From contig NZ_QLLK01000017.1 of assembly GCF_003259505.1 (NCBI RefSeq), forward strand, positions 1-64,000: a stretch of DNA of 64,000 bases, given 5' to 3'. The notes beneath the pieces were generated by a model. That model worked only from the letters and a program-made list of their open reading frames with translations. It was not told the origin of the DNA and ran no database searches. This document shows, piece after piece, positions 18,970 through 44,598 of the stretch (position 1 is the first letter of the stretch; each line of letters begins with the position of its first letter). The translations under genes were made by a program, and so were the position numbers. This DNA comes from Algoriphagus yeomjeoni. Its GTDB lineage: Bacteria > Bacteroidota > Bacteroidia > Cytophagales > Cyclobacteriaceae.

Positions 18970-19971
18970 ATGAGTCAAATTTCTAACTCTTGTATTGATA
19001 GTATCCGGCAAATTATTTCGCAGGCACAGACAAATGCAGCTCGCGCAATAAATCAGGAGCGGGTTTTAATGTATTGGGAAATCGGTCGGCACATCGTAGA
19101 AGAAGAGCAAAACGGAAAAGAGCGTGCAGATTATGGGACATTTCTCCTAAAAAACTTGGCTACAGCCCTTGAAAAGGACTTTGGAAGCGGTTTTTCTTTC
19201 AGGCAACTTAATTTTTGTAGACAGTTTTATATCACATTCCCAATAATGAACGCACTGCGTTCACAATTAAACTGGACTCAATATCGGCTGTTGATCCGCA
19301 TTGATGATTCAGACAAAAGAACCTATTATATAGAGGAGACCTGTAATAACAATTGGAGTGCACGGCAATTGGAAAGACAGATTAATAGCCAATTATACGA
19401 ACGCCTTTTGCTAAGTAACGAGAAAGAGAAGGTTTTAGCTGTGGCTAAAAAAGAAGCTCAACCTGAAAATCCCAGAGAAATAATTAAAGACCCAATGGTG
19501 TTGGAATTTTTAGGGTTAAAACCACAAGCATCGTACTACGAAAAAGACTTGGAGAATGCTCTAATTACCAATATGCAATCCTTTTTATTGGAGTTAGGTA
19601 ATGGCTTTTCATTTGTAGCTAGGCAAAAAAGAATTCAACTGGAAGATGATGCTTATTTCATTGACTTAGTCTTCTACAATCGTCTGCTTAGGTGTTTCGT
19701 TTTGATAGAAATCAAAACCCATAAGCTCACTCATCAAGACTTGGGACAATTACTGATGTACGTAAATTATTATGATCGAACTGAAAAACAAGCTGATGAA
19801 AATCCCACTATTGGAATAATACTCTGTGCCGATAAAAACAATACCATGGTAGAATTTGCCTTGCCTAAACACAACACTAATATCCTCGCAAGTAAATACC
19901 AGTTATATCTCCCTAAGAAGGATCAGTTGGAGAAAGAATTCAAGAAAATAGTGCAAGACAAATTAGCCTAA
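18970..19971 (+). CDS. YhcG/DUF1016 family PD-(D/E)XK nuclease protein
   Basis: The 333 residues have the DUF1016 N-terminal helical domain (about 10-150, with 'LMYWEIGRHIVEEEQ' and 'FSFRQLNFCRQFY') and the C-terminal YhcG PD-(D/E)XK nuclease domain. The putative active site is D237-type in 'YFIDLVFYNRLL' with 'FVLIEIKTHKLTHQDLGQL' supplying E and K. YhcG proteins are often near type I restriction genes or mobile elements; the cellular role is not settled. It is the left-most gene of the accessory island. Confidence 0.9.
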   Translation: MSQISNSCIDSIRQIISQAQTNAARAINQERVLMYWEIGRHIVEEEQNGKERADYGTFLLKNLATALEKDFGSGFSFRQLNFCRQFYITFPIMNALRSQLNWTQYRLLIRIDDSDKRTYYIEETCNNNWSARQLERQINSQLYERLLLSNEKEKVLAVAKKEAQPENPREIIKDPMVLEFLGLKPQASYYEKDLENALITNMQSFLLELGNGFSFVARQKRIQLEDDAYFIDLVFYNRLLRCFVLIEIKTHKLTHQDLGQLLMYVNYYDRTEKQADENPTIGIILCADKNNTMVEFALPKHNTNILASKYQLYLPKKDQLEKEFKKIVQDKLA

Positions 19972-20007
19972 AATAGGAGAAATTCATCTACTCAACTTTC
20001 TACTAAA

Positions 20008-20103
20008 TCACCCCGCCACAGGATTCAACTCCGTATCGATCACCTCACCTATCTTCGCTCCCGGGCATCAGGTATTCCAGTCATGGATCTGATTAGCATA
20101 CTA
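20008..20103 (-). pseudogene. 3' fragment 1 of a phytanoyl-CoA dioxygenase gene
   Basis: About 95 bp, read on the minus strand, match the last 30 or so codons of the intact dioxygenase at 22529-23326 (ending in the NPVAG-stop region) with scattered substitutions. The homology with fragment 2 extends a further 22 bp past the stop (from 19986), which the intact gene lacks. Confidence 0.8.
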
Positions 20104-20302
20104 TTTGGCTTGTTGGAATGAAAATCCAAATTAGAATAAAACATCATCTATAGGGCGTGAAGTCGATCCTAAAACTCACTTTCTGGAAAAACTAACTCTT
20201 CAAGGTGCAAAAATTAAAGTTTGGAGGAGAATGATATAAAAGAAAGGCAGGAAGTATACGTCCCTGGTTGGGTATGCAGCGTTGTTATGCTTAATTTATA
20301 AA

Positions 20303-20393
20303 ATGAAATCGAGCATGTCGAAAAGGACACACAAAGGGATAATTATAAGCCTTGCGAGATTCCATCTGACCGCTAAAAAACAATTATAAACAG
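20303..20393 (+). promoter_or_regulatory. Leader element copy A, directly upstream of the PRMT-like gene
   Basis: GAAATCGAGCA (20305-20315) pairs with TGCGAGATTCC (20353-20363), leaving a symmetric GA/GA internal loop. Inside, TGTC (20316-20319) pairs with GACA (20326-20329). TGCGAG is followed 41 nt later by ATGAAA, the gene start. Copies B (34671), C (44507) and D (21591) share this layout. It also contains a short frame beginning ATGAAATCGAGC (MKSS...) that stops 5 nt before the gene. It could be a structured mRNA leader, a mobile repeat, or both. Confidence 0.7.
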
Positions 20394-21398
20394 ATGAAAA
20401 CACTTGAGAAAATAGCCTTCGTTTTGCGAAAAGACCAGACAGATTATTTGGAGTTGGCTCAAGCAATCCAAGACTATGAAAGTTTGGTTTTCGCGTTATC
20501 AACTATTGAAATCGAAAATGAATCAAACAGGGAGGACATTCATTTTGATACCGGAAAAGCATTGGGCACCACTTGGGCAGCTCTATGCATAAGAGATCTG
20601 ATTCGCACAAAAATTTTTATAAAAGGGCTTTTTAATGCTATAGAACAGGTTAAAAAAACAAAACAAGGTACTGTAAATGTTCTATATGCAGGAACTGGCC
20701 CCTTTGCCACATTGATCTTACCAATAATGGCTACCTACTCGGAAGCGGAAGTACAGTTCACACTATTGGAAGTGAATAAGGTAAGTTTTGACACTGTCAA
20801 TCAAGTGATCAATAAATTAGGATTTGGCGGTTACATTAAAGCTTCGACAAACGAAGACGCAACAAAATATGTAGTCAATTCTGACCATCAAATTGACATT
20901 GTAGTAAGCGAGACGATGCAGCACGGATTGAAACGAGAACAACAAGTTCCAATAGTGTTGAATATAATGCGTCAAGTGAAGGAAGAAGTAATTTTAATTC
21001 CTGAAAAGATCACACTTAATGTTTGCCAAATGAACTTTACAAAACTTCATGCAAGAGAGAAAAACACAGAAGAGGAGTATTGCATTCGGTTGGGTGCTTT
21101 TTTTGAACTAAGCCGTGAGAAAATAAAAGAGTATGAGCTGAGCAGTCATCTGGAGAATGGGAAATTACTGTTCCCGCAAAAGTCGATTAATCTAAAAATG
21201 GAAGACTTAAAGGAATTCAACCAGTTGGCAGTCCTTACTGAGATTCAGGTGTTCGGTGAAAATAAAATCAGTATCAATGAAAGTGGGCTAACCATGCCAC
21301 TGATATTAGAAGACCTTTCAGCTCATCAAAAAGGATTAACCTTAAACATTAGATACACGGTTAGTGAAGAGCCGGGAATTGAGTACTCATGGATTTAG
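20394..21398 (+). CDS. PRMT-like class I SAM-dependent methyltransferase
   Basis: A 334-residue protein with a SAM-binding motif I 'VLYAGTGPFATL' (96-107), an acidic residue after strand 2 in 'LLEVN' (E126) and 'DIVVSETMQHGLKREQ' (168-183). The last aligns with the double-glutamate loop of protein arginine methyltransferases (SE-x-M-x-x-x-L-x-x-E), with both glutamates kept. 'RDLIRTKIFIKGLFNAI' before motif I resembles the PRMT helix X/Y region, and 'LIPEKITL' follows as in PRMTs before their beta barrel. The C-terminal 130 residues could be a divergent barrel. The substrate is unknown. The gene follows leader copy A and is framed by two dioxygenase gene fragments. Confidence 0.65.
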   Translation: MKTLEKIAFVLRKDQTDYLELAQAIQDYESLVFALSTIEIENESNREDIHFDTGKALGTTWAALCIRDLIRTKIFIKGLFNAIEQVKKTKQGTVNVLYAGTGPFATLILPIMATYSEAEVQFTLLEVNKVSFDTVNQVINKLGFGGYIKASTNEDATKYVVNSDHQIDIVVSETMQHGLKREQQVPIVLNIMRQVKEEVILIPEKITLNVCQMNFTKLHAREKNTEEEYCIRLGAFFELSREKIKEYELSSHLENGKLLFPQKSINLKMEDLKEFNQLAVLTEIQVFGENKISINESGLTMPLILEDLSAHQKGLTLNIRYTVSEEPGIEYSWI

Positions 21399-21437
21399 TG
21401 TAAAACAGGGAGAATAGATCTACTCAACTTTCTACTA

Positions 21438-21853
21438 AATCCCCGCCACAGGATTCAATTCCGTATCAATCACCTCTCCGATCTTCGCTCCAGGGCACCA
21501 GGTATTCCAATCGTTAATCTGATTATCATTTTCAGGATTTTTGAGCTTAGCAGTAGCATCCATATAGATCACTGTCATCACCTTTCGCATTTCATGTGTT
21601 TATATTTTGATTTTAATTGGCCACATGGAATCTCGCATCATTTTAAACATCCTCTGTGTGACGCTTGAGTCATGCCTGTCTGCCTCAGGCAGGCTCGATT
21701 TGATCTGTTTGATTTGCTCCGGCACGATGAAAAACCCAGCCTGAGTGGAAACTCACTTCTCCCAAATCAAAGGCTTCGATCACATGCTCAAAGTTGTTGA
21801 TGCGGAGATTCTGCTTGATTTTCTATTCGGGCTCAGCCCCTATCTATAGATCT
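21438..21853 (-). pseudogene. 3' fragment 2 of a phytanoyl-CoA dioxygenase gene, interrupted
   Basis: Read on the minus strand, about 300 bp match the C-terminal third of the intact dioxygenase gene (from the 'IGDDSEAKIKDN' region through 'SFHSGW', 'HRAGANQT' and 'RKVMTVIYMD' to the stop). The copy is split at the codon after 'NQTDQ' by a leader element of about 110 bp at 21591-21701 and has many substitutions. The upstream two thirds of the gene are missing. Confidence 0.82.
21591..21701 (-). repeat. Leader element copy D, inserted in dioxygenase fragment 2
   Basis: The plus strand shows GGAATCTCGCA (21627-21637), an inner hairpin TGAC/GTCA (21659-21672), a further palindrome CTGCCT-C-AGGCAG (21680-21692) not found in the other copies, and the end GGCTCGATTT. 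Read on the minus strand, TGCGAG is followed after 42 nt by ATGAAA, as in copies A-C. Dioxygenase-coding sequence flanks it on both sides, which shows insertion. Confidence 0.7.
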
Positions 21854-33113: not shown

Positions 33114-34670
33114 TTAATATCCTGGATTCTGAGGCATTAGATTCGGATTATTCTGCATTTCTGGAAGCGGGTAAGGCATTAAGTAATGCTTGGCTTGTAA
33201 GGTCTGATTAGAGCTTGGATTAGTATGTCCTTCAAAATTATCAAATCCATTCGTGGCTTCATTGTATACTTTGCGTAAGCGAAGCATATCAAACCAGGTA
33301 ATCTGCTCATAGCAGAGCTCATGCCATCTCTCTCTCAAAACTGCATCTCTGAATGTATCTGAGGTAAATCCGCCCATGCTTGGAGTGGTTAACCCAGCTC
33401 TGTCACGTATTCTTTTCAAACTCTCAACAGCTAAAGCATTTGGTCCACCAACTTCGTTTTGAGCCTCTGCATAGATCAGCAATACCTCTGCAAATCTGAT
33501 TAAAGGAACATTCAGGTTGTTTGCCCTTGTGCCTGGCTGGTCCTTTGTGCCTAGTGCTTGCTGATTGAAATGTTTGAAAATATAAGGCGCACCCAGATCA
33601 AATTCCTCACCGCTACCATTTGTGTAGTAAGTAGTGTAAAAGAATCCTTCCTGATTAACTGCTCGCTTATCTCCAGGCTCATAGGAATTGTAGAAATCTT
33701 CCGTTGGAACAGTACTACCAGTTCCTGATGGACCCGCAAAGGTCACAGGCTTAAAGTTCGGAAACATATTGTTCATAGGATTTCCAGCCACAATCACATT
33801 ATACTGTAGCATAAAGATATGCTCTAGTCTATTGTCATTGTTCTCATTATGAATTGCCTTGTAGGTTGGAAACAAGTTGATTGAAAGCGGATTACTAGTA
33901 GCATAGTCAATCACTTCCTTCGACTTGTCAGCAGCCAATTGATAATGAGACGCTCCCTTGCTCAGAGGAAATCCCGCCATAGTCAAATAGACCTTCGCCA
34001 ACATTGATTTGGTAGCCGCCAAGGATGCTCTACCGCTATTGTCCATCCAAGGCAATCCTGCTGCTTCAGCTGCTTTCAAATCCTCCAAGATTAAAGCATA
34101 AACTGCGTCTTGCGAAGCTGGCGCAGGTCTGAAATTTTCAGAACTAGCCGTCTGTGGCATGGTAATCAATGGTACATCGCCCCATAGCCTCACAGCATAG
34201 AAATATGCCCAAGCTCTTAGGAATCTTGCTTCACCAAGAATTTTCGTCTTTTGTGCCGCATCCATTGGTGTAATAGCTGGTACCTTATCCAGTACTAGAT
34301 TTGCTTGTGCTATTACTTTATACAATCCATTCCACCAATTGATCACATGCTGAGTTCTTCCATCATAAATGAGCCCGTACAGGTTATTCAAATCGGAATT
34401 CTGGGCTGTCTCGGTAGTAGATGTTCCCGTTGGAGCTTCTAGTAATTGCCAAGTTGAAGAAAAGATTCCCCCATCTCCCCCAATAAATCGTGTATCGGCA
34501 TACACTGAAGCAAGTGCTGCTTCGGCATGGTCAGGAATAGTATAGAAACTTTCAGGTGTCAAATTGGAAGGGTCTTTTTCTTCCAAGAAACTTGAACAAC
34601 CTACAAATCCTGCTACCAACGCACCAAAAAGGAGCAACCTGCCTGCTTTGTTATATATGTTATTTTTCAT
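33114..34670 (-). CDS. SusD/RagB family nutrient-binding lipoprotein, pair 1
   Basis: SusD proteins sit on the cell surface and hand glycan to the SusC channel. The 518 residues carry a lipoprotein signal (cysteine 25, 'GFVGCSSFLEEKDPSNLTPESF'), tetratricopeptide-like helices with 'LGEARFLRAWAYFYAVRLWGDVPLI' and the C-terminal 'RIRDRAGL...RERWHELCYEQITWFDMLRLRK' area. It follows susC but is separated by 119 bp that contain leader element copy B, more than the 44 bp in the second pair. Confidence 0.95.
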   Translation of the reverse strand: MKNNIYNKAGRLLLFGALVAGFVGCSSFLEEKDPSNLTPESFYTIPDHAEAALASVYADTRFIGGDGGIFSSTWQLLEAPTGTSTTETAQNSDLNNLYGLIYDGRTQHVINWWNGLYKVIAQANLVLDKVPAITPMDAAQKTKILGEARFLRAWAYFYAVRLWGDVPLITMPQTASSENFRPAPASQDAVYALILEDLKAAEAAGLPWMDNSGRASLAATKSMLAKVYLTMAGFPLSKGASHYQLAADKSKEVIDYATSNPLSINLFPTYKAIHNENNDNRLEHIFMLQYNVIVAGNPMNNMFPNFKPVTFAGPSGTGSTVPTEDFYNSYEPGDKRAVNQEGFFYTTYYTNGSGEEFDLGAPYIFKHFNQQALGTKDQPGTRANNLNVPLIRFAEVLLIYAEAQNEVGGPNALAVESLKRIRDRAGLTTPSMGGFTSDTFRDAVLRERWHELCYEQITWFDMLRLRKVYNEATNGFDNFEGHTNPSSNQTLQAKHYLMPYPLPEMQNNPNLMPQNPGY

Positions 34671-34760
34671 ATGAATATATTTTTTTTAAAGGTCACATGT
34701 AATCTCGCATGGAGATAAAACCAGACTTCTTTGTCCAGCCTTTGTCTTGCTCGATTTCAT
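34671..34760 (-). promoter_or_regulatory. Leader element copy B, in the susC-susD gap
   Basis: On the minus strand ATGAAATCGAGCA (ends at 34748) and TGCGAGATTAC (34709-34699) form the outer hairpin, with AGAC/GTCT inside. ATGAAA, the susD start, comes 39 nt after TGCGAG. The short internal frame MKSSKTKAGQ... ends in TAA before susD. It starts about 30 bp after the susC stop, so it is the 5' context of susD only. Confidence 0.7.
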
Positions 34761-34789: not shown

Positions 34790-37700
34790 TTAAAGAGTCA
34801 CCTGCAGACCGAACATGAAAATTGTCGGTCTCGGATAACTGTGCCAGTTCATACCTTGTGAGAAAACATTACTTCCGGTACCACCACGAATAGGTGTTGT
34901 TTCTGGATCACCATTGATATCTTTTCCTGTCAATAGGAAGAAATTCTGAGCTGAGGCATATGCTCTCAATCTGCTTAGTTTGATAGCGCTAGTTACATTG
35001 GTTGGAAAACTATATCCCAGTAATAGGTTTCTGCCACGAAGGAAAGAACCATCTTTAACCCAGTGAGAATCCACATTAGTCACATATCCTGCTCGAGTAT
35101 CTCGGATCTCTGCAATCATTGTGTTTTGGTTCTGAGGTGTCCATGCATTCAGCACTGAAGTATAGCTATTTGCCAAAGCTTGACGGTCTTCACTTGGGTG
35201 CAAAGTCATGTCTAGCACATCATTTCCTACACTATATTGAAGCTCAACAGTTAGATCAAAATTGTACATTCTGAAACTGTTGGAAATTGCTCCCCAGAAA
35301 TCAGGGCTACCATTACCAATGATCATTCTATCCGAATCGTTGATTGCTTTATCTCCATTGACATCCAAGTATTTGATATCACCTGGAAGAATTGTAAGTC
35401 CATTTCTATAACTCACAAATTCAGCTGCTTCTGCTCTTTCTGCTTCACTCCAAGTACCCAATCGTACCAATCCCCAGAAAGAACCTACCGGTTCACCAAC
35501 TCTGATGATGTTGGTCTGGTTGGTGAAATTAGGACCACCAACTCCGAAAATATCGGCCGGAGTTGCTAGTGACAACACCTTATTTCTGTTTAGTGAGAGG
35601 TTAAAAGAGGTGTTCCAACTGAAATTCTCCGAATCAAAATTCACAGAATTAAGCGTGAATTCAACTCCCTTATTTTCCATAGAACCTACATTGCTTCGGA
35701 TGGTCGCATATCCACTTGTTCTTGGTACAGGCGAATCCAATAGCATGTCTGTAGTTTTTCTATAATAAAGGTCAACTTCCAAATTCAGGCGATTATTGAA
35801 CAATCCCAATTCAACTCCAAAATCAGTCTGAGCTGTTTTCTCCCATCTCAAATCTGGGTTTGCCAGTCTATTGATACCTGTTCCACCCACTTGATTTTCG
35901 TTATAAATCGCAGAATAATTAGAACTCAACAGAGAAAGGGAAGAATAAGGAGGTATCTCTGAGTTACCTGTCAAACCGTAACTCGTTCTCAACTTTAGGT
36001 TTGAAATAGTTGAATTGCCTTTCAAAAATCCTTCTTCAGAAACCCTCCAAGCCAGCGCTGCTGAAGGGAAAAAGGCATATTTGTTATTATCACCGAATTT
36101 TGACGAACCATCGGCACGACCTGTTGCGGTAAACAAATACTTATCATCAAGGATATAATTGATTCTGGCAAAGTAGGAATTCAATGCTTCACGGTCAGCT
36201 CCCGAACCTACTCTTGGCAGCTGGCTCCCAGCACCGAGATTATTGTACAAGAAGTAATCCGTAGAGAAATTTTGGATACTTGCACTCATAGATGAGGAAT
36301 TACTTTCCTGCCATGAAATACCAAGTAGTCCTTCTACAGCATGTCTTTCAGCAAATACTTTATTATAAGTCAAGTAATTCTCCAGAGACCAAAATGTGTT
36401 TTTGTTCAAACTTTTGGACGCAGTTCCACTCTGCCCAATAGCTAATGTTCTGGTCTCAGACCTGTCATTTTCCTGCGTCAGGATATTTACACCCAATGCG
36501 GTTCTCATTTGGAGTGCATCAGAAAACTTGATGTTAGTGTACGCACTTCCCAAGGTAGTTTGAGTATTAAGGATATACCTTCTTCCAGACAACCTGTGCA
36601 TAGAACTCATTGTACCTTCCGCAAAAGGATAATCTCTGTTATTAGCAAAGGTTCCATCCTCATATTTCACAGGAAGGAATGGGAAATCTTCTACCATCTG
36701 TCTGGCAACAGCATCAGACACATCGACTAGATTTTCTGACTGATTGTTATAGCTAAGGCTACCACCTACTGTCAACCAAGATTTCACTTTATCTTCTATA
36801 GTGAAACGAGTAGAATATCTTTTCAAATAGGATGTTTTTACAAGTCCTTGATCATCCCTATATCCCAATGAAAGCGAGTAAGAAGTACGCTCATTACCTC
36901 CAGTAAAGCCTAACTGATGGTTTTGGGAAAGCTTGTTTTGAGTGGTTTCCTGTAGCCAATCAGTATCATAAAGAGGATTACCCTGGCTGTCAAAAATACG
37001 GGGATCGGTTCTTCTAAGGGCTGGGTTTAGGTAGGCCCACTTGCCAGCATTCCATCCTTCTGGATCGTATTTAGCCATATTAGCCCAAGCTAAATCCTCA
37101 ACATCCAAATATTGCTGGGCATTTAACACCTCAGGTCTATTTGGACCTATGATAGGAACACTTAAATCCACATTGTATGTTACGCTACCTTCGCCTGATT
37201 TACCTTTTTTGGTGGTGATTAGAATAACGCCATTCGCACCTCTAGAACCATAAATCGCAGTAGATGATGCGTCTTTCAACACCTCCACAGATACAATATC
37301 GTTCGGGTTGATATAATCTATTGCACTACTTTGTTGATCCAAAGTACCCATTGGCATCTGAACACCATCTATAACATATAGTGGATTATTTGATGAGTTG
37401 ATGGAGCTGAATCCTCTGATCCTAACAGTGGTTCTTCCTCCTGGACGTCCTGAGTTGTTATTTACTTGAACTCCAGACACTCTTCCTGCCAAAGCTTGAT
37501 TTAAAGATGCTGCCGGACGCTCTCGCAGTGCTTCTGCACCAACTGAGCCTACAGAACCAGTTAAATCACTTCTTTTGGTAGTTCCATAACCAATCACCAC
37601 TACCTCGTCAAGAGCTGTGGCATCAGGTCTTAGTGTTATGTTAATTACACTTTGCGAACCCACTGTAACTCGCTGTGGCTCATATCCTATATAAGAAAAT

Positions 37701-37981: not shown

Positions 37982-38949
37982 AGTATAAGAGGTTTATTTT
38001 AATGGTTACTAAAAATATTTCTGTAATTATAATTTATAACACAGAGGATCGAATATTGCGCAGCGAGGGATCTTCTTAAATTTCGACTGCTCCTTCCAAA
38101 GGTCTCTTTGATCAGTTCATTGGCAATCTGTTTTTTTTAAAATAAAAATTATGTAAAAATTAGTTGATACCTAGTACATTAATCAGAACAAGCTGGAAAA
38201 ACCTGAACACTTTCACCCATCACAAAAATGAAAACAAAATCAAGCAGGAGTTAATTATTTGAAATTCAATTATTTGAAAAATCTCAATTGAAATCAATCC
38301 CCTCACACTATTTTTATAAAAACACTTCTTTTAGCTATTCATATAATAAAAAATGAATCTGACATCTAATTTAAGACTCATCTTTTAGCTCATTCTTATT
38401 AAGAAAAATCCAAGGGATATTATTAATTCAATATGTTTCTTAAACATCTTTTAAATTAATTGAACAAAACCTTCTTTAAATGTAAATAAATCCATTTACC
38501 GAAGCCCTCCTTCCAAATACCCTCAGATCTAATTTAGAAAAAAATTTTAATTGTTAGGTCTATTCTAAAAAAATTTTAGAAACTACTATAGTCAAAAGAA
38601 GTAACCTATTATTTCATTTTTAACAATAATATTAGCACAAATAGCTTATCAAAAACCCTTCAATTCCAATTCAACACAAAAATATCAATCTCAACGGAAT
38701 CATGAACCCTAATTATCCAAATTCAACAAGAATATAAATTTTCAACTATCTAAAAATTTGCTTTCACAAGCCACTGGTAATCCTCGCGCATTTCGGTTAA
38801 AATTATATTGTACTAGTCAAATTGTCCGAATCCTAGCTAATTATGTTCGATTTCGTTACACAAATTTCATATGAACTGATCGTCCCGGCTACAACAAGAC
38901 TTTTTTTAAATTGGAACAAGTATTGAAGATATTAACCTAAAAACTCCTT
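37982..38949. other. Long AT-rich intergenic region upstream of susC
   Basis: No gene was found in these 968 bp. The sequence is strongly AT-rich, especially 38100-38900, with no copies of the repeats seen elsewhere. It must hold the promoters for susC (minus) and the small membrane protein (plus), but no exact TAnnTTTG box was found near susC. Confidence 0.5.
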
Positions 38950-44305: not shown

Positions 44306-44506
44306 TCAAAAAGTTTCATTGGTTGATGACAATAAATACGTAACAGTGTATCCAAGAGATTGCTCTGAAACATCACATGTTTGGGTGATTTTTGGAGCAA
44401 CTTGCCGAAAATGTGAAAAGGAAGAAATAGCCTGCTGATCAGCATCCAAGTAATTATTGAATGTTATTCCCCACAGGACACAGGTGATTTTAAAAAAAAA
44501 TTTCAT
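44306..44506 (-). CDS. Possible small exported peptide (66 aa), doubtful
   Basis: A 66-residue frame starts at the ATG that ends leader element copy C, at the same spacing seen for the PRMT-like gene and susD. The N-terminus 'MKFFFKITCVLWGITF' is hydrophobic with a basic start, like a signal peptide; the rest is not recognised. The frame has no family match I know. It is listed because of the leader element and its place between the response regulator and sigma factor genes. Confidence 0.35.
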   Translation of the reverse strand: MKFFFKITCVLWGITFNNYLDADQQAISSFSHFRQVAPKITQTCDVSEQSLGYTVTYLLSSTNETF

Positions 44507-44598
44507 ATGTCTATAATTGTTTTTTAGCGGTCATATGGAATCTCGCAGGATTTATAATCATCCCAGTGTTTGACGTTATTCGTCATGCTCGATTTCAT
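44507..44598 (-). promoter_or_regulatory. Leader element copy C
   Basis: On the minus strand ATGAAATCGAGCA (44598-44586) and TGCGAGATTCC (44547-44537) form the outer stem. TGACG/CGTCA (44571-44585) is the inner stem. ATGAAA follows 41 nt after TGCGAG. The 3' half is almost identical to copy A, including the A run and CAATTATA before the ATG. Confidence 0.7.

Follow-up and report, generated by a model that had tools for sequence, protein, structure and literature searches.

A start-codon-rebuilding repeat of Algoriphagus, almost certainly mobile, and its possible movement as single-stranded DNA

Four copies of a short structured element, each running into an ATGAAA, lie in a 64,000-nucleotide stretch of the Algoriphagus yeomjeoni genome (the window), and they raise the question of what kind of element this is. 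An earlier note on this DNA had offered two options, a cis-acting RNA leader or a mobile repeat that delivers a leader together with a start codon. The mobile repeat has held up, whereas the RNA leader has not as the reason for the family. Evidence for mobility comes from empty and occupied alleles at three genes, from tandem arrays and from near-identical dispersed copies in two relatives, that is, from other copies of the genome and genus and not from the window's own. We regard it as almost certain that the element is mobile and rebuilds start codons, and an HUH/Y1 mechanism as a substantial but tentative possibility; the full statement, a start-codon-rebuilding mobile DNA repeat moved as single-stranded DNA by HUH/Y1, is probably correct.

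All four copies exist where they had been placed (20303, plus strand; 21591-21701, 34671-34760 and 44507-44598, all minus strand), with covariance-model scores of 108.6, 104.4, 65.0 and 64.7 bits; the training set of the model (A3) contained two of the four (L027 and L029), L028 being the third. Their parts are as follows.

20304 to 20308, plus strand: left TGAAA of copy 1, which with 20303 forms the old ATG
20309 to 20394, plus strand: body of copy 1 (TCGAGC...CAGA, 86 bp), its last base being the A of the gene's ATG
20395 to 20399, plus strand: right TGAAA of copy 1, with the start codon at 20394-20396
20394 to 21398, plus strand: 334-aa ORF behind copy 1
20307 to 20361, plus strand: stem P1 of copy 1, AATC GA GCA (20307-20315) with TGC GA GATT (20353-20361)
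20363 to 20396, plus strand: stem P4 of copy 1, CATCTG (20363-20368) with CAGATG (20391-20396), which holds the start codon
21595 to 21698, minus strand: body of copy 2; an extra palindrome (about 18 bp) follows GAGC, and the left flank has TCAAA in place of TGAAA
34670 to 34754, minus strand: body of copy 3 (85 bp), lying between the end of susC at 34790 and the start of susD at 34670
34755 to 34759, minus strand: left TGAAA of copy 3
34665 to 34669, minus strand: right TGAAA of copy 3, which with 34670 gives the ATGAAA of susD
44506 to 44592, minus strand: body of copy 4 (87 bp), its last base being the A in the ATG that starts the 66-aa ORF (44306-44506)
44593 to 44597, minus strand: left TGAAA of copy 4
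44501 to 44505, minus strand: right TGAAA of copy 4

The start-to-start spacing from TGCGAG to ATGAAA is 41, 42, 39 and 41 nt, as claimed, and in three copies this ATG does open a frame (the 334-aa ORF, a SusD protein with PF07980, and the 66-aa ORF). The description of the 334-aa protein as PRMT-like was not borne out, there being no Pfam match at E<=0.01. In copy 2 the ATGAAA opens 5 codons only, and a 51-codon frame begins 5 nt further on; this copy (minus strand, about 21698-21595) starts CAAATCGAGC and carries the extra palindrome. The two outer-stem motifs had been given for every copy: TGCGAGATT is present in all four, but GAAATCGAGCA is exact in three only. The inner hairpin AGAC/GTCT of the copy at 34.7 kb lies off the position of stem P2, whose pairs are unpaired there, and has to be struck out as a fourth covarying case. 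Overlooked altogether was the stem CATnTG...CAnATG (P4), which contains the start codon. The left TGAAA of copy 1 is read as a target because of empty alleles at other genes; the 334-aa gene has no close ortholog (distant matches in 4 of 48 other genomes) and so provides no ortholog-based empty site.

Several neighbouring features of the window were recorded on the way. What may be a fifth copy, very decayed, lies at 38739-38858 on the minus strand (21.6 bits, E 0.069; left end GAAATCGAACA). Judged by eye, two similar stretches on the minus strand, 20000-20110 and 21434-21560, resemble repeated gene 3' ends (...CPGAKIGEVIDTELNPVAGI and stop), the second of them lying directly behind copy 2. 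A YhcG_C/DUF1016_N nuclease-like gene (PF06250, PF17761) occupies 18970-19971 on the plus strand.

The window copies belong to a large family. A covariance model built from 40 copies gave at least 86 matches in this Algoriphagus genome (E<=0.01), and with 150 of 2315 first-look candidates scored this figure may be a lower bound; two pattern copies (L002 and L026) fall outside the model list and five more decayed copies were found via their left ends, so that the genome holds roughly 90. The strict pattern GAAATCGAGCA N28-58 TGCGAGATT matched 30 times in the 4.97-Mb genome (30 contigs) and its reversed control not once. It was present in 20 of the 58 genomes searched, source included, which were 20 of 36 within the genus and 0 of 22 outside it. 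Among the matches listed (80 of at least 118 stretches), the named genomes are Algoriphagus, Lunatimonas, Lunatibacter, Cyclobacterium, Pararhodonellum, Pleomorphovibrio, Anditalea and Cyclobacteriaceae, and Algoriphagus accounts for most of the exact matches listed; the NCBI taxonomy assigns Lunatibacter and Pleomorphovibrio to Cyclobacteriaceae and Anditalea to Cytophagaceae. Four single hits in other phyla among the matches listed (L204, L214, L266 and L275) resemble chance, and were excluded from the site-preference, pairing and reading-frame counts given below while being retained in the left-flank base count. Identical copies were counted once. No match was found in viral contigs, a set that possibly leaves out records near this genome, and searches of the PMC literature, in which subscription papers are mostly uncovered, returned no description of a start-codon-inserted repeat or of this family.

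Copies are both clustered and dispersed. Tandem units overlap by ATGAAATCG, and five of them lie head to tail before one gene of this genome, G000 (locus L108, C2:78032-78503). A dispersed near-identical partner exists for 10 of 17 copies in genome G016 and 9 of 14 in G004, which marks recent spread in these two, for 3 of 30 in G000, and for none of the 30 copies compared out of 44 in G014.

Movement is seen at dnaN, aroQ and the aspartokinase gene, where occupied and exactly empty sites coexist among 49 genus genomes: dnaN is occupied in 17 when decayed remnants are counted by eye (in 11 when a motif regex is used) and empty in 32, aroQ is occupied in 8 and empty in 41, and the aspartokinase gene is occupied in 11 and empty in 38. 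The empty dnaN allele reads ...agccctacgat followed at once by ATGAAATTTATTGTT; in the occupied allele ...agccctacgat is followed by ATGAAATCGAGC...AATCAT and then by ATGAAATTTATTGTT. Empty aroQ alleles start with TTG in 37 cases (TTGAAA in 30) and GTG in 4 (GTGAAA), with no ATG among the 41, whereas the right start of the occupied alleles is ATGAAA in 8 of 8 and the left is TTGAAA in all 7 with a recognisable left motif, so that the element ends in its own A before the right TGAAA. Comparison of the alleles shows that a given site carries the element in some species and is exactly empty in others, that the element sits between two TGAAA pentamers, that its last base makes the right TGAAA into ATGAAA and so converts a TTG start to ATG, that the old NTG remains upstream, and that an A-rich stretch (about AAATTATAAACAnATGAAA) is placed before the new start. 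Several of the starts supplied by the element agree with familiar protein N-termini, namely MKILIINGPNLN of AroQ, MKFIVSSSALL of DnaN and MKIIKFGGSSV of aspartokinase.

On a tree of 21 genomes each of the three loci needs at least 4 changes. The aspartokinase copies of G000, G059, G077, G086 and G020 have common letters that are absent from the compared dnaN and aroQ copies, and G018, G082, G072, G061 and G027, within the aspartokinase-occupied clade, are exactly empty; one gain and four exact losses would be the simplest reading of this pattern, with re-insertion also possible. Overall identity is 0.64 for two copies at one gene (61 pairs) and 0.61 for two copies at different genes (129 pairs), only a slight difference.

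Inserts occur within the element itself. Three different ones are found at one place in the aspartokinase copies of G000, G059 and G077, and none in G086 and G020. Short palindromes of genome-wide repeat types (TCCCGATAG..CTATCGGGA; CCTGCCT..AGGCAGG) sit at fixed places, directly after TGCGAGATTC in many copies (e.g. L002, L004, L014, L030 and L058) and after GAGC in the window (about 21675-21692). The usual CATnTG directly after GATTC is missing from 53 of 207 copies, 41 of which have such a palindrome.

The sites of insertion are strongly skewed towards gene starts. Right ends of the 86 copies fall on an ORF of at least 60 codons in 67 cases, on the next copy of a tandem in 8 and on a shorter ORF in 7, with 4 lacking NTGAA; an ORF of 60 codons or more therefore starts at 67 of the 74 resolvable non-tandem right ends. 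In a site-preference count over 111 loci (0.88 Mb, crude ORF calling, tandem copies excluded), right ends divide 69:22:4 between starts, other non-coding positions and coding interiors, as against 138:177:840 for other ATGAAA sites, so that 22 of 95 lie at neither a start nor a gene interior. The scarcity of copies in coding interiors is expected from selection. Selection alone does not explain why starts are in fourfold excess over the remaining non-coding sites (p=6e-8), and a true targeting preference for start codons is possible. The base before the left TGAAA is A in 90%, T in 6%, G in 2% and C in 1% of 147 copies with no element upstream, which fits start codons and also pairing with the guide proposed below.

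The other option was that the element acts as RNA. On that account P1 and P2 fold in the transcript, and the CAU that follows P1 forms pairs with the old start, extending P1, or else with the gene's start in P4, with translation regulated or the old start masked as the outcome. It gains from the constant sense orientation of the element before its gene, although this orientation also follows from insertion at TGAAA. The predicted RNA fold likewise pairs the gene's start codon in window copies 1, 2 and 4 and leaves it open in copy 3. The four window copies fold with modest z-scores (-1.25 to -2.78), the genes behind the copies are unrelated, occupancy is patchy even among close relatives, and decayed remnants without stems persist before dnaN in six genomes (G032, G079, G010, G071, G062 and G085). 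Within the window no Rfam family matches at the gathering threshold. Three weak matches, in loci L001, L003 and L027, lie off the element.

Covariation bears on both options. It holds in P1, P2 and the start-codon stem, all by Watson-Crick pairs, in counts that are not independent events since the copies share ancestry. The pattern itself fixes P1, with its GA/GA internal loop, in the exact copies; among the 69 copies that carry 1-4 substitutions in the two motifs, P1 has 9 compensated cells (three of them in one tandem array), 9 G-U, 10 A-C and 32 other mismatches. For P2, counted over all 111 cores of 57 nt and not restricted to the 152 of 200 copies in which 3 or more Watson-Crick pairs form, 416 Watson-Crick pairs compare with 345 expected from column composition, 28 G-U with 36 and 22 A-C with 28. 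The middle pair of P4 (CATnTG/CAnATG), counted in the 147 of 200 copies that have no insert and a resolvable right end, is G-C in 53, C-G in 42 and A-T in 28, giving 123 Watson-Crick pairs where 50 are expected, 6 G-U where 14.5 are expected and 3 A-C where 16 are expected. A further helix, P3 (GG..CC), drawn by eye and put into model R1, was dropped, as it shows no covariation (176 Watson-Crick cells against 173 expected). RNAalifold on 20 copies returned the invariant P1 and no compensatory pair.

In none of P1, P2 and P4 is G-U in excess over A-C or over expectation. RNA helices normally tolerate G-U well, and Watson-Crick covariation without a G-U excess favours a structure in DNA over an RNA leader. 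The G-U and A-C counts thus speak against RNA as the primary nature of the element, and we consider a cis-acting RNA leader, whether regulating translation or masking the old start, improbable as the explanation of the family. A secondary effect of the inserted element on translation may nevertheless exist.

The main evidence for a role as RNA lies in the slow change of the P1 motifs in place. In six sets comprising 19 copies judged orthologous, chosen by eye and with pooled pairs that are not independent, the left motif differs at 14 of 288 positions compared (4.9%) and the right motif at 35 of 312 (11.2%), against 213 of 882 (24.1%) in the inner part, 98 of 516 (19.0%) in the spacer, 144 of 941 (15.3%) in the upstream 40 bp and 46 of 720 (6.4%) in the first 30 coding bases; one set (G079 and G014) has equal differences in motif and inner part. 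Such slow change in P1 is not expected of a neutral insertion, and the arms seem to be retained while the element is inserted. This could mean that P1 masks the old start, a translational role, or that the loci are renewed.

A third account, a conserved upstream reading frame (MKSSMTKKSHTGMI...INT and stop) coupled to the gene through an ATGA overlap, we consider highly improbable. In 150 of 200 copies the length of the core is divisible by 3, which can be explained by the two common lengths of 57 and 54. The frame set by the left start continues without a stop as far as the right ATG in 71 of 193 copies (0 and 35 for the other frames) and its TGA overlaps the right ATG in 59 of 193, but a stop precedes the right ATG in 122 of 193, and in the variable part the three codon positions vary equally (mean entropy 1.12, 1.09 and 1.14 bits). 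A conserved upstream peptide was rejected for want of any codon-position signal.

We return to the mobile DNA repeat and to how it might move. On this reading the element is a non-autonomous repeat whose body measures about 86 bp (TCGAGC...CAnA) and whose site of insertion is NTGAAA, above all where NTGAAA is the start codon and second codon of a gene. We infer that its antisense strand is moved as single-stranded DNA, in trans, by an HUH (Y1) transposase of the IS200/IS605 or REP type. The antisense order is TTTCA and TnTG, with the putative cleavage site between them, about 21 nt, the putative guide CAnATGG, the hairpin formed by P1 and P2, and a second TTTCA with its putative cut. There is only one hairpin unit (P1 and P2) rather than hairpins at both ends, and one hairpin and one guide would serve both ends by pairings of 6 bp and 3 bp. 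In the putative guide the 6-bp pairing CATnTG/CAnATG covaries and the 3-bp pairing at the left end is invariant. Start codons would be over-represented because insertion there rebuilds the split start, while insertions within genes are purged.

Candidates for the enzyme were sought as PF01797, which is present in 21 of 22 genomes searched, with 7 matches in G016, 5 in G004, 9 in G000 (of several subfamilies) and none in G014, which has 44 exact copies. The spread of copies and these counts agree with a Y1 mobiliser lost from G014. Over the 22 genomes, however, the number of PF01797 matches does not track copy number (2 each in G027 and G030 with more than 40 copies, 3 each in G021 and G025 with none) and is therefore not evidence for a particular gene. 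Around the nine PF01797 loci of G000, about 1.5 kb on each side holds one intact and one degenerate copy, neither adjacent, and the nearest intact copy is more than 1 kb from any PF01797 gene. Y1_Tnp as the proven mobiliser is unsupported by proximity or copy number. An autonomous parent was also dismissed in G000, where the eight unlisted of 63 exact left ends, read for up to about 5 kb beyond, turned out to be five decayed copies and three coding coincidences. A bias in replication strand, sought in two single-contig genomes, appeared against all genes (p=1.3e-4 and 0.008) and weakened with matched controls: 63:69 compares with 46:36 for ATGAAA starts with free upstream sequence (p=0.26), and against all ATGAAA starts p=0.016.

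The same mobile element might instead be served by another enzyme, such as a DDE transposase with a 5-bp duplication, a tyrosine recombinase acting on a folded site, or an RNA and reverse-transcriptase route. A 5-bp target duplication would account equally well for the flanking TGAAA pentamers, G014 carries copies although PF01797 gives no match there, and in G000 the element does not closely flank any Y1 gene; the two ends are, however, not inverted repeats of each other in the A3 consensus, and among the 63 left ends, eight of them read over up to about 5 kb, no longer element with an internal gene was found. On balance we think another enzyme rather unlikely.

The single-stranded DNA reading can be set beside known systems. 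IS200/IS605 ends and REPs carry the guide 5' of the hairpin foot, and the REP tag at that foot is GTAG or GTGG, according to PMC6006769. Like REPs and REPINs (TnpA-REP, RAYT), the element is short, multi-copy, non-coding and intergenic, with nested or clustered copies, an antisense hairpin with a possible guide 5' of the foot and no internal gene. It differs in sitting at a start codon, in a 6-bp pairing that includes the element end, in the foot CAnATGG (antisense) where REPs have GTAG or GTGG, and in the lack of a TnpA-REP gene flanked by the element in G000, the genome scanned. With IS200/IS605 (IS608, ISDra2 and non-autonomous derivatives) it has in common a fixed short target beside the element, exact empty sites, no terminal inverted repeats, a subterminal hairpin and guide-like complementarity to both ends; in contrast, it has one hairpin rather than two, no internal tnpA or tnpB, and a target TTTCA (antisense) at start codons. 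DDE-type MITEs resemble it in being small, non-autonomous and repeated with a direct repeat (here TGAAA) on both sides, but the element lacks terminal inverted repeats, its left end being TCGAGCAT and the reverse complement of its right end TnTGTTTA. A structured 5' leader RNA (riboswitch or RNA thermometer) also lies directly before a start codon and can pair with it, unlike which the element is patchy with exact empty alleles, precedes unrelated genes, and has no G-U preference and, in the window, no Rfam match.

The refuting tests named in the earlier note leave its observation standing: related genomes carry further copies, most of these lie at start codons, and the covariation holds in P1, P2 and the start-codon stem. 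That insertion rebuilds the split start explains how the repeat can settle in the starts of dnaN, aroQ and aspartokinase without destroying the gene. Tentatively, and with less assurance than we attach to the HUH/Y1 route, we suggest a class of mobile DNA that inserts at the very codon where translation starts: one hairpin and one guide would recognise NTGAAA at both ends, the old start would be left upstream, and the gene would receive a new ATG and initiation region (TTG or GTG becoming ATG), dozens of times per genome, also before essential genes such as dnaN, and in an exactly reversible manner. Across the genus the element turns TTG starts into ATG and places extra starts upstream, so that it may tune expression, and it can lead annotation to the wrong start site. 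If the single-guide reading is true, this would be a minimal system of DNA mobility directed by a guide, and the slow change of its P1 arms would offer a testable case of a mobile repeat with a host role.
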